Below are positions 1 to 35,253 of a stretch of DNA of 35,253 nt, in pieces. The notes beneath the pieces were generated by a model that saw only the letters and a list, made by a program, of their open reading frames with translations, did no database searches and was not told the DNA's origin. This stretch comes from Azospirillaceae bacterium. Lineage in GTDB: Bacteria > Pseudomonadota > Alphaproteobacteria > Azospirillales > Azospirillaceae. How positions within the stretch are numbered: position 1 is the first letter of the stretch; every line of letters begins with the position of its first letter. The stretch is from positions 1-35,253 of the forward strand of contig JANQJV010000381.1 in assembly GCA_028281465.1 (NCBI GenBank). The letters are read 5' to 3'. A program made the translations under genes and the position numbers.

Positions 1-118
1 TGCCGGCTGGACCGCCGCCATCTTGGCGGCCGGCCGCTGGGCGTGGTCCGGGCCGGCTGGAAGCCGGCGCTCCGAAACAGGGCGGCCCGAGGACCGGTCA
101 TTGTTTCGGGCCGTTGGC
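1..118 (-). repeat. Dispersed palindromic repeat, copy 1 (partial at window edge)
   Basis: GC-rich non-coding repeat that matches the reverse complement of the copies at 21183-21355 and 31413-31622 and has the orientation of 34755-34913. It is cut by the window start. It contains the element's CGGCCGCCAAGATGGCGGCGG core (here in reverse complement) and the CCGAAACAGGGCGGCCCGAGG segment near its right end. Compared with copy 3 it lacks 24 bp between two GCCGGCG direct repeats, so the long hairpin is damaged. No coding frame is credible. Confidence 0.85.
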
Positions 119-3739: not shown

Positions 3740-4724
3740 GCCTGGCCTTAGCGAGTTCGATCGCATCGACCGGTTCATGAAACCATTGACCCGGGGGTAT
3801 CCCGGTGCATTGGCTCTGAGCGACGATGCCGCTCTGCTCGTCCCCGAAGCGGGGTGGGAGATCGTGGTGACCACCGATGCCTTAGTGGCCGGCGTGCATT
3901 TCCTGGCCACGGATGCGCCGGAGGACACTGCTGCCAAGCTCCTACGTACCAATCTTTCCGATTTGGCGGCCATGGCGGCTGATCCGTTCGGCTACATGCT
4001 CACGGTCGTTTTGCCGCGCGTCGTGGACGATGCTTGGCTCTCGCGCTTCACCGCCGCCCTGGCGGAGGATCAGGCGCGGTACGGCGTGCATCTGATCGGC
4101 GGCGACTCGGTGAAGACCGATGGCCCCATCGTGCTGTCGGTCACCGCGTTCGGTCGCGTGCCGGCTGGGACCGCAGTGCTGCGCAGCGGTGCTCGGCCGG
4201 GTGATACGGTGTTTGTTACTGGTACGATCGGCGATGCCGCCATGGCGCTGCGCGACGTGCTCGGTGAGCGGTCGATTGAAGACCCGGAGCACCGAACGGC
4301 CCTTCTGCAGCGATTGCGTCGGCCCACACCGCGCGTGGCGTTTGGTCGGGCATTGCGCGGCATTGCATCCGCCGCCATCGACGTCTCCGACGGGTTGGTG
4401 GCGGATTTGGGCCATGTCTGTACGGCCTCGGGCTGTTCGGCAACCATCGAGGCAACACGCGTGCCCTTTTCGCCGGCGGTCACTGCGCTGATCGCGACCG
4501 AACCGGCGCTGCTCGGCCGGGCGGTGACCGGTGGCGACGATTACGAGTTGCTGTTTACCGTGCCGCCCGGCCGGCGTGCTGCTCTTGACGCCGTGGCCGC
4601 CGCCGCCGATCCGGTGGTCACTGAGATCGGCCGGATCGAAGGGGCTGCCACGCCACGTGTGCGCCTGGTCGGTGCGGATGGTGCCGCCATGGCTTTGACA
4701 CAGACCGGTTGGTCGCATTTCTGA
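3726..4724 (+). CDS. thiL: Thiamine-monophosphate kinase
   Basis: ATP-dependent phosphorylation of thiamine monophosphate to thiamine pyrophosphate, the last step of the pathway. The 332-residue product shows the PurM/ThiL-fold motifs in order: LSDDAALL near residue 27, TTDALVAGVHF, LRTNLSDLAAMAADP, LIGGDSVKTDGPIVLS, DVSDGLVADLGH and GGDDYELLFTVP. The ATG at 3726 lies inside the end of nusB (14-bp overlap); the frame is open further upstream, but that part is a shadow of nusB. The TGA stop falls inside the first unit of a 13-bp tandem repeat, so gain or loss of later units would not change the protein. TPP made here is the cofactor of NifJ encoded downstream. Confidence 0.95.
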   Translation: MDSPRPGLSEFDRIDRFMKPLTRGYPGALALSDDAALLVPEAGWEIVVTTDALVAGVHFLATDAPEDTAAKLLRTNLSDLAAMAADPFGYMLTVVLPRVVDDAWLSRFTAALAEDQARYGVHLIGGDSVKTDGPIVLSVTAFGRVPAGTAVLRSGARPGDTVFVTGTIGDAAMALRDVLGERSIEDPEHRTALLQRLRRPTPRVAFGRALRGIASAAIDVSDGLVADLGHVCTASGCSATIEATRVPFSPAVTALIATEPALLGRAVTGGDDYELLFTVPPGRRAALDAVAAAADPVVTEIGRIEGAATPRVRLVGADGAAMALTQTGWSHF

Positions 4725-4770
4725 CTGGCCCGTCTGACTGGCCCGTCTGACTGGCCCGTCTGACTGGCCC
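4721..4770 (+). repeat. 13-bp tandem repeat at the thiL stop codon
   Basis: The unit CTGACTGGCCCGT occurs as 4721-4733, 4734-4746, 4747-4759 and a partial 4760-4770, almost four perfect copies. Each unit holds a TGA; that of the first unit is the thiL stop. The array is not in multiples of three and lies outside the coding region apart from its first four bases. It may be a slippage-prone minisatellite, with possible effects on mRNA between thiL and the next gene. Confidence 0.9.
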
Positions 4771-18106: not shown

Positions 18107-18302
18107 CCCCTCTGTCATGGACCTGAGAGATTCACCGCTCCGGATCGGACCGGCTTACTCCTTCGGTGAGGCGGACGCATGCGCCGCCTGCTTTCCAGAG
18201 TGCCTCTCCCTGCGGTCCGTTTGCCTGAGAGTTTCCGGGGCCGGTTGCTCCTTCGGCGCCGGTCCGCCACCCGAGTGGGCGTCGGCCGGTCTCTCCCGCC
18301 AG
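18107..18302 (-). ncRNA. Tandem glycine riboswitch (two aptamers)
   Basis: Read on the minus strand, two glycine aptamers occur in series. Aptamer I (about 18302-18206) runs from GGCGGGAGAGACCGGCC through GCCGAAGGAGCAACC to AAACTCTCAGGCAAACGGAC. Aptamer II (about 18204-18107) runs from GGCACTCTGGAAAG through CACCGAAGGAGTAAGCC to GAATCTCTCAGGTCC and GACAGAGGGG. The CTCTCAGG and CCGAAGGAG signatures are typical of the family. The element precedes gcvT by about 50 nt, so it very likely switches the gcv operon on when glycine is plentiful. The mechanism (translation or termination) is not settled. Confidence 0.95.
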
Positions 18303-18388
18303 GGATCAGTGGCGTGTCTCGAAGGGCGGCTGTTCACCGCCCGGATCACTCAGCTCCGTGCAGGTCGCGAATGCGTAATGCGCATAGT

Positions 18389-20778: not shown

Positions 20779-21182
20779 GGAGGATTCAAGACCACAAGCC
20801 ATGAAGCGTACGGCGACTGCGATCCTTCGGGTGAGGGTGACGCGGGCGGCGGGCACGTGACCCTGCTATGGAAACAGAGGGGGTTATCTATATAAATCAA
20901 CGGCTTAATTCTAGCGCGAACACCGGGCCAAAGCCCCGCTCCCGCGGGGAGTGGGGCGAAGGTGTCTCGGCCTGAGCGATTGCCAATCACCCGTCCAGCG
21001 GCGCCACCTCCCTCTGGCCGCTGTCGCGCTCATCTTTGCGTATTTTTTTGGGCACATCTGTTGGAGGACATTCGCCCTCTGGGAGTCATGGAGAGAATCG
21101 GGACGAAAGCCCGATCCACCCTTCGATGCTCGAATCCGTGGGAGAGCACGGTGCTCTCCCCCGTCGGGTGGGAGGGTGTAAT

Positions 21183-21355
21183 ACCAACGGCCCGAAACAC
21201 GGACCGGTCCTCGGGCCGCCCTGTTTCGGAGCGCTGGCATCCTTGCCGGCTGGACCGCCGGCTTCCAGCCGGCCCGGACCACGCCCAGGAGCCGGCCGCC
21301 AAGATGGCGGCGGTCCAGCCGGCAGGGATGCCGGCGCTCCTCAGTTCAGCGCCGA
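21183..21355 (+). repeat. Dispersed palindromic repeat, copy 2
   Basis: Collinear with 31413-31585 and reverse-complementary to copies 1 and 4. It begins CCAACGGCCCGAAACAC and includes CCGAAACA/TGTTTCGG and GGCCCGA/TCGGGCC dyads. It has a 33-bp inverted repeat, left arm 21228-21260 and right arm 21308-21340. The arms differ at two places; both are C-to-T on the left arm opposite G on the right, so an RNA stem would keep G-U pairs. The tail shared by copies 3 and 4 after GTTCAG is missing here. It lies between convergent genes. Confidence 0.88.
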
Positions 21356-21377
21356 TGATTTGCTGAAAAAACAGAGT

Positions 21378-21423
21378 GCTAGAGCGGTTTCCGCGAACCA
21401 GCGTGCGCGGAAACTGCTCTAGC
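21378..21423. repeat. 18-bp inverted repeat (GCTAGAGCGGTTTCCGCG type)
   Basis: GCTAGAGCGGTTTCCGCG (21378-21395) and CGCGGAAACTGCTCTAGC (21406-21423) pair along 18 bp with one mismatch around a 10-nt loop. Intergenic palindromes with CTAGAGC ends are familiar in alphaproteobacterial genomes. It sits 114 bp beyond the stop of the sensor kinase and may act as its transcription end or be another extragenic palindrome. It is unrelated in sequence to the larger dispersed repeat beside it. Confidence 0.8.
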
Positions 21424-21536
21424 CCGCCGCCGCTGCACCGTGTTCATCTGCGGTGGTGCAGGCCCCGGAACGGGCCATGTCCGGCGACTCTCCCCAAGCA
21501 AGCGACGTGTACGATGTACGCTCGGGAAGTCGGTCG

Positions 21537-31286: not shown

Positions 31287-31710
31287 GGATCAAACCTCCG
31301 AGAAGATGCGACAGGCGGGTCAGGGAAAGCCGCTGCTATGAAAACTCAACGGATTTTTCTTTACATATCAATAGCTTAGCTCTGGCCCGAGCAAGGGGCA
31401 CAAAGGGTTAAGACCAACGGCCCGAAACACTGACCGATCCTCGGGCCGCCCTGTTTCGGAGCGCCGGCATCCGTGCCGGCTGGACCGCCGGCGTCCAGCC
31501 GGCCCGGACCCCGCCCAGCAGCCGGCCGCCAAGATGGCGGCGGTCCAGCCGGCAGGGATGCCGGCGCTCCTCGTTCAGTGCCGAAACCGACCGTGTCGTC
31601 AAGGCAGGCCATGGGTATAAGTTATTGATGTAGAGGGTAAATTCCGTCCAGTTGTCGTAGCGGGGGGGGCGTTCACGCGATCGAACGATCATCGATGAGA
31701 GCCGTTGGCA
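31287..31710. other. Intergenic interval splitting choX from choWV
   Basis: No gene is supported in these 424 bp. Repeat copy 3 fills 31413-31622. The flanks are comparatively AT-rich (for example 31340-31380 and 31610-31650). In related choXWV loci the three genes usually follow one another closely, so the gap is unusual. No promoter for choW can be named with confidence. Confidence 0.55.
31413..31622 (+). repeat. Dispersed palindromic repeat, copy 3 (most complete)
   Basis: About 210 bp. The left part has the CCGAAACA/TGTTTCGG and GGCCCGA/TCGGGCC dyads. The core is a 33-bp inverted repeat (31458-31490 and 31538-31570), with a single mismatch, around a 47-nt centre. A tail, CCGAAACCGACCGTGTCGTC, ends at the GCCATGGGTAT segment near 31620 and is shared with copy 4. 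TCCAGCCGGC is present twice inside (31494-31503 and 31544-31553). As RNA it would fold into a very long GC-rich stem. No frame is credible, and no transposase or target duplication is visible. Confidence 0.9.
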
Positions 31711-34564: not shown

Positions 34565-35253
34565 CGAACAAGAGGCCCGTCTCCCTCAGGGAGGGGGGAG
34601 GGTGGGGCGAGGGTCGTGCCGCCAAGCCGATGAGCGACCATCGGTCAACCCGACACACCCTCAGCCGGCCGCGTGCCGCAGCCACCGGCGTATCAGCCGA
34701 CGGAGACGCCCGTTTGGGGGCACGGCGCATCTGTCTCTGTCTTGGATATCCAATCTCATACCCATGGCCCGCATTGACGACACGGTCGGTTTCGGCGCTG
34801 AACGAGGAGCGCCGGCATCCGTGCCGGCTGGAAGCCGGCGGTCCAGCTGGCAAGCATGCCGGCGCTCCGAAACAGGGCGGCCCGAGGACCGGTCATTGTT
34901 TCGGGCCCTTGGTTATCAGTGCGCGCCGTGCGCCAACCACCGAGTCAGTGCATTTTGATTTCGCTCCATTTCCGAGTTGTGTGAATCCCGTCGCCGAGAG
35001 GGAGAGGGCTCCGGTGTCCGCTCAAGTCCCACACCGGTCTTTCGACCGACCCACCATGACCGAAACGGTGGCTTTTCGACGGCGTGCCCTCCTTTATAGC
35101 ACGGTTGTCGGCATGAAGATCGGTCGTTCATTGGTGACGCGAAGCCCGTGCTCTAGACCCCGCAAAACCCCGGCGAGCACCTCACAGAGAGGGCGTAGTT
35201 TCTTGTTAGTCACTCACCGGCCTTGCGGCCGACCTGCCGGGGATGAAACAGTC
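34565..35253. other. Non-coding interval after betA to the window end
   Basis: No gene is supported in these 689 bp. A purine-rich CTCCCT-C-AGGGAG dyad lies just after betA (34581-34605 region), copy 4 of the repeat lies at 34755-34913, and the last 340 bp show only short frames without start signals. A GC hairpin CGGCC-TTG-CGGCCG-type dyad is near 35217-35232. A gene may begin beyond the window, but nothing shows it. Confidence 0.5.
34755..34913 (-). repeat. Dispersed palindromic repeat, copy 4 (50-bp internal deletion)
   Basis: Reverse complement of copy 3 along nearly its whole length, from the GCCATGGGTAT tail (34755 side) to the CCGAAACAATGACCGG head (34913 side). Relative to copy 3 it lacks exactly 50 bp, the interval between the two TCCAGCCGGC direct repeats, with one copy kept. 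The deletion removes most of one hairpin arm's partner and the centre. Elsewhere only scattered substitutions separate the copies. Confidence 0.88.

Follow-up and report, generated by a model that had tools for sequence, protein, structure and literature searches.

A high-copy MITE of an Azospirillaceae genome carries two GGAG-tagged REP hairpins in inverted orientation and is probably dispersed with TNA target duplication

The related segments scattered through the window, i.e., the whole 35,253-nucleotide stretch analysed here (contig C94 of a 6.33-Mb Azospirillaceae genome assembled in 426 contigs), are probably copies of a MITE that a TNA-duplicating transposase mobilises in trans and that carries a REPIN related to the hairpins of a RAYT gene of the same genome. 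The original prediction listed four such segments, and all of them are real; sequence comparison placed them in a single repeat family, with copies in both orientations. The copies in the window and the parts of the most complete one are as follows:

31411..31618, + strand: copy 3, full 208-bp form, with a TAA target duplication at 31409-31411 and 31618-31620
31411..31457, + strand: copy 3, left (A) arm, with the ATACCAACGGCCCG-type terminal inverted repeat, which reads AGACC in this copy
31458..31570, + strand: copy 3, REP doublet (REPIN-like core), with hairpins GGAGCGCCGGC.. and GGACCGCCGGC.. on one side and their inverted partners on the other
31571..31618, + strand: copy 3, right (B) arm, terminating in GGCCATGGGTAT
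21181..21354, + strand: copy 2, with complete left arm and core, and in place of the right arm a different repeat starting ATGATTTGCTGAAAAAACA
34758..34915, - strand: copy 4, 158-bp internal-deletion form, with a TCA duplication at 34756-34758 and 34916-34918
1..118, - strand: copy 1, interrupted by the contig start

The limits of copy 3, first placed at 31413-31622 by a reading that missed the defined ends and the TNA duplication, were corrected to 31411-31618 because these ends are defined and accompanied by that duplication. For copy 3, the description of a 33-bp stem that has a single mismatch and encloses 47 nt proved exact; this stem corresponds to fold columns 48-80 paired with 128-160. 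Copy 4 lacks 50 bp between two TCCAGCCGGC repeats, and copy 2 lies between convergent genes. A third repeat (ATGATTTGCTGAAAAAACA...AGAGCGGTTTCCGCGAACC...GCGGAAACTGCTCTAG; window 21354-21425), present in 11 copies in the sample described below, takes the place of the right end in copy 2 and in a copy in stretch L124.

The element was surveyed in 1.69 Mb of the genome, taken as stretches of which many were picked because the repeat was present; base-by-base reading covered approximately 27% of the genome. The sample contained 70 complete elements, most commonly of 208 bp. In this master form, MITE-like ends (ATACCAACGGCCCG...GGGCCATGGGTAT) enclose the inverted pair of GGAG-tagged REP hairpins, in the order A arm (ATACCAACGGCCCGAAACAATGACCGGTCCTCGGGCCGCCCTGTTTC), 113-bp core and B arm terminating in GCGGGCCATGGGTAT. 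Hairpins of the type GGAGCGCCGGCATCC[N]TGCCGGC are located at both ends of the core in opposite orientation, and a second hairpin with the tag GGACC lies inward of each. Terminal inverted repeats, ATACC(A/C)NNGGCCCG, are present at both element ends, and the outer ends are conserved across every size class, REP-free copies included. Being short, non-coding and dispersed at high copy number in both orientations, the element has the attributes of a MITE, and its two REPs, arranged as inverted repeats with a spacer, have those of a REPIN. It lacks the GTAG-type tag that adjoins a 20-40-bp hairpin in the GTAG REP superfamily, as its own tag is GGAG; hairpins combining GGAGC with GCCGGC were found 197 times in the sample, and the GTAGC control three times.

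Genome-wide, the core pattern returned 401 matches with up to three mismatches (none for the reversed control), and the end pattern TNATACCNNNGGCCCG returned 305 exact matches (none for the control). The full-length matches, among those listed, had E values of 1e-79 or lower. Arm counts of 290 (from stretches not picked for the element) or 454 (exact pattern, scaled) correspond to an estimated family size of about 150-230 copies. The proposal of an unnamed, non-autonomous, high-copy family resembling MITEs or REPs was borne out, and the element is in fact both, a MITE whose cargo is a REP doublet. The copies had also been described as lying only between genes, which holds in bulk: 68 of the 70 complete copies are intergenic, and the overlap with genes predicted by a home-made gene caller exceeded 25 bp in the remaining two, versus 80% of random points. 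Convergent gene pairs flank 20 of 47 copies, compared to 16% of intergenic regions, and divergent pairs flank just two. In keeping away from genes and in their preference for sites where genes converge, the copies behave as REPs generally do (PMC3733652).

The arms of the element were absent from all 118 relatives searched. Weak matches in relatives were discounted, being short, GC-rich and mostly restricted to the core, with none spanning the arms. The sole foreign match to the left arm was on contig JANQKQ010000058.1 (L052), filed under Rhizobiaceae, whose genes appear to be alphaproteobacterial; the tested part of this contig had no counterpart in the genome of the window beyond short repeats. 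The REP core pattern was found in one of the 398 genomes of the phylum sample, namely the window's own. A plasmid search and an IMG/VR scan with the arm of the element returned nothing of use, and a literature search with the core sequence gave unrelated matches only. The REP core did match a viral contig with 38% GC in IMG/VR (IMGVR_UViG_3300001336_000216, L203:5600-5800), which bears tandem hairpins GGGAGCGC[A/C]GGCATC[C/T]NTGCC[G/T]GC with nearly the same core. This contig was set aside, being unrelated in context and belonging to an unrelated genome.

Target duplications were read as a TNA that shares its last base with the start of the left end, mirrored at the right end. The variable base matched in all nine of the 90-92-bp copies (expected 2.8; permutation p = 0.0003) and in 14 of 24 copies measuring 201-215 bp (expected 6.3; p = 0.0009), and the duplication matched in 5/8 copies of the 101-140-bp class (p = 0.012). 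Unequal duplications were observed in 10 of the 24 long copies bearing TNA on both sides; they likely result from mis-assembly across repeats of such length, and some may represent genuine recombination. We read these mismatches as chimeric assembly joins because the short copies, which can be spanned by reads, show none. Target duplications are not known for RAYT/Y1 enzymes. The TNA duplication therefore points to a duplication-making transposase, not to RAYT-type movement.

A 3-bp TNA target is used by some IS5 subgroups, and from the target of the window's family we presume an IS5-like transposase. The element is similar to IS5-type MITEs in its target, but its terminal inverted repeat matches no IS5-type locus found in the genome. 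With about 27% of the genome read base by base, no autonomous partner with the element's ends was identified among the DDE_Tnp_1 or DUF4096 loci or at their ends, and the DDE_Tnp_1_2 matches were two of these already checked loci. In the mechanism that we propose, a TNA-duplicating transposase would make the copies in trans, the REP pair would travel as a passenger with a relationship to the RAYT locus, and slippage deletions would then be promoted by the hairpins, down to the REP-free 91-bp form. The REP pair may have originated at the RAYT locus, or the transfer may have gone in the reverse direction. We suggest only tentatively that REP hairpins are spread as MITE cargo by a duplication-making (DDE-type) transposase and not by the RAYT.

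Apart from the 208-bp form, the elements measured 90-92 bp (n = 9), 123 bp (n = 8), 135 bp (n = 1), 158 bp (n = 2) and 174-193 bp (n = 8), and a small number were symmetrical, with AA or BB arms. A 6-10-bp homology was found at the deletion junction in 21 of 28 shorter copies and involved eight different repeat sequences, including AGCGCCG, GCCGGC, CAGCCGGC and TCCAGCCGGC; the 123-bp class alone had two different main junctions. By chance, direct-repeat junctions arise in 1.8% of random endpoint pairs, or in 17% when deletion lengths are fixed to the observed ones, a control that is partly circular. The 91-bp copies are REP-free, fold into one hairpin and have arm polymorphisms common to the long copies. 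Based on the junctions at direct repeats and the shared arm polymorphisms, the shorter forms most likely descend from the 208-bp form, copy 4 of the window being one such deletion. The palindromic cargo is seen here to erode at direct repeats built into its own hairpins. In a rather unlikely variant of the proposed mechanism, the MITE would have started instead as a 91-bp REP-free ancestor, from which a single REPIN insertion with an AGCGCC duplication gave the 208-bp form, the intermediate sizes being later deletions. The 90-92-bp copies do have the most regular duplications, as well as the single-hairpin fold, but such a course is at odds with eight different junction sequences at direct repeats, AGCGCCG among them, and with the polymorphisms shared between 91-bp and long copies, which recurrent deletion predicts.

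One Y1 transposase gene passing the Pfam family was found in the genome. It encodes a RAYT (G000:C136:305-1018) that passes the NCBIfam model NF047646 (REP-associated tyrosine transposase) with 93.7 bits against a cutoff of 80. An inverted pair of GGAG hairpins lies upstream of this gene and another hairpin in its 3' end; the sought RAYT gene with matching hairpins was thus found, and its flanking arrangement is that of a REPIN system. The protein search also indicated weaker RAYT-like stretches on contigs C66 and C337. Relatives of the RAYT are about 23-47% identical, and eight foreign RAYT loci that were scanned had no convincing matching hairpins. An ordinary REPIN family moved by this RAYT, with the arms as a conserved spacer and TNA as a target preference, would agree with the inverted tagged pair, the extragenic location and the hairpins around the gene. 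We consider it improbable, given the nine-out-of-nine TNA matches in the short copies, of a kind not known from RAYT/Y1 enzymes, and the REP-free 91-bp copies that retain both ends and duplication. Moreover, REPINs are almost absent outside the MITE arms: among 219 REP units, 207 are located beside MITE arms, three at stretch edges and nine alone, and the clear solo units are those at the RAYT gene, the others being a shortened-arm variant and decayed copies. This distribution speaks against the REP pair by itself being what replicates. The dispersal route is legible from the sequence here, as the ends, the TNA duplication and both REP-bearing and REP-free copies of one transposon are present in a single genome, together with a RAYT gene flanked by hairpins that match this cargo. 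At L174:6273-6402 and L144:1299-1427, which have homologous flanks, the arms around a REP doublet are strongly shortened (ATACCAACGGC-TTTCGG...GCTCC-GGTAT).

Perfect hairpins following GGAGC numbered 251 in the sample; in addition to the stem GCCGGC, 40 of them had the compensated stem GCCGAC/GTCGGC. Control tags gave scattered matches (3-30 each), except for GGACC, the tag of the element's own second hairpin. The 40 hairpins belong to a second dispersed family with unrelated arms (CAAGAAACGAACGGTGCC...GGTGAGAAC) and TNA-like borders (L184:69-112, L184:7230-7500, L136:14282-14545 and others). This family is about 270 bp long, occurs in at least 40 places among the matches listed (214 candidates), and has arms CAAGAAACGAACGG...GGTGAGAAC that enclose two GGAGCGCCGACG-CCTC-GTCGGC hairpins in inverted orientation. 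The window's family has inserted repeatedly beside the right end of this second family, with about ten cases in the sample. The presence of the same GGAG-tagged pair in two families whose arms are unrelated suggests, tentatively, that the pair may give a MITE some advantage, e.g., processing aided by the RAYT or tolerance of copies close to gene ends.

The stem differences of copy 2, which had been taken as a hint of selection on an RNA or cruciform, do keep G-U pairing. However, departures from the long stem over 32 copies of 208 bp comprised 46 pair-breaking, 30 one-sided pair-keeping and no two-sided changes, and the whole-structure covariation score within the family equalled that of shuffles; the G-U pairing is therefore true yet not evidence of RNA selection. 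The sole covariation seen was between the two different repeat families of the genome. Conservation in the stems of the short hairpins exceeded that of other G/C columns only slightly (p = 0.047). The whole long stem was rejected as a selected unit, as variation concentrates in the short-hairpin loops and is uncompensated. A selected RNA element at gene ends (terminator, sRNA or mRNA stabiliser) would be consistent with the very stable fold (z -7.6) and with the excess of copies between convergent genes, but REPs and tolerated insertions show the same gene-end placement, and the lack of covariation within the family, the lack of an Rfam match at the element and the hallmarks of a mobile element make it very unlikely. 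Metagenome mis-assembly that inflates copy number and junctions is hardly credible, even though 69 of the 115 contig ends inspected, from stretches selected for the element, fall inside it or close by and unequal duplications are commoner in long than in 91-bp copies, as many copies have different unique flanks and matching duplications and the read-spannable 91-bp copies are dispersed too.

Among known systems, QMITE2 of Coxiella burnetii is a MITE of 150-190 bp that has both terminal inverted repeats and direct repeats and encloses a GTAG REP (PMC5896051). It resembles the MITE described here in holding a REP and in being found between genes and at gene 3' ends, and its smaller copies resemble bare REPs (PMC5896051). 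In contrast to the TNA of the window's family, its duplications are 7-11 nt long and variable in sequence; it has 78 copies, fewer than estimated here, and another sequence and tag, and its small forms lose the terminal inverted repeats (PMC5896051), whereas in the small forms here it is the REPs that are lost and the ends that are kept. As QMITE2 demonstrates, a REP carried within a MITE was already known (PMC5896051); the family of the window is set apart by its TNA duplication, its REP-free copies and its GGAG tag, and by the existence of the second family, whose stem is compensated. REPINs and GTAG REPs associated with RAYT genes share the inverted tagged pair, the extragenic location and the hairpins flanking the RAYT (PMC3116915, PMC3733652, PMC8266576), but the element differs from them in its GGAG tag, its TNA duplications and the near absence of hairpins outside the TIR-bearing element. 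In the section of the source that describes them, GTAG-15 dimers of Anabaena variabilis lie in long palindromes and CGTC-1 dimers of Halothiobacillus neapolitanus in 41-bp palindromes, so that REP dimers are likewise enclosed in a fixed longer palindrome; REP-free palindromes were not found there, and that section describes no duplication (PMC3733652). In contrast, REP-free copies with matching TNA exist in the genome of the window, which identifies the outer part of the element as a transposon.

Several other features were recorded. The window at 35196-35253 and contig ends in L037, L043, L119, L159 and L177 share GCCGGGGATGAAACAGTCCAGTTTTCCGAGCGCATATATAGC, apparently a long collapsed repeat. 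Tandem FGE-sulfatase-like domains at L084:227-6113 and L144:94-4393 end in RVVRGGSW...LGFR with variable positions and resemble the target proteins of diversity-generating retroelements; element copies sit between these paralogues. A 13-bp unit, TCTGACTGGCCCG, is repeated in tandem at the end of a gene (window 4720-4770), and a glycine riboswitch aptamer is located on the minus strand of the window at 18203-18308 (63.5 bits).
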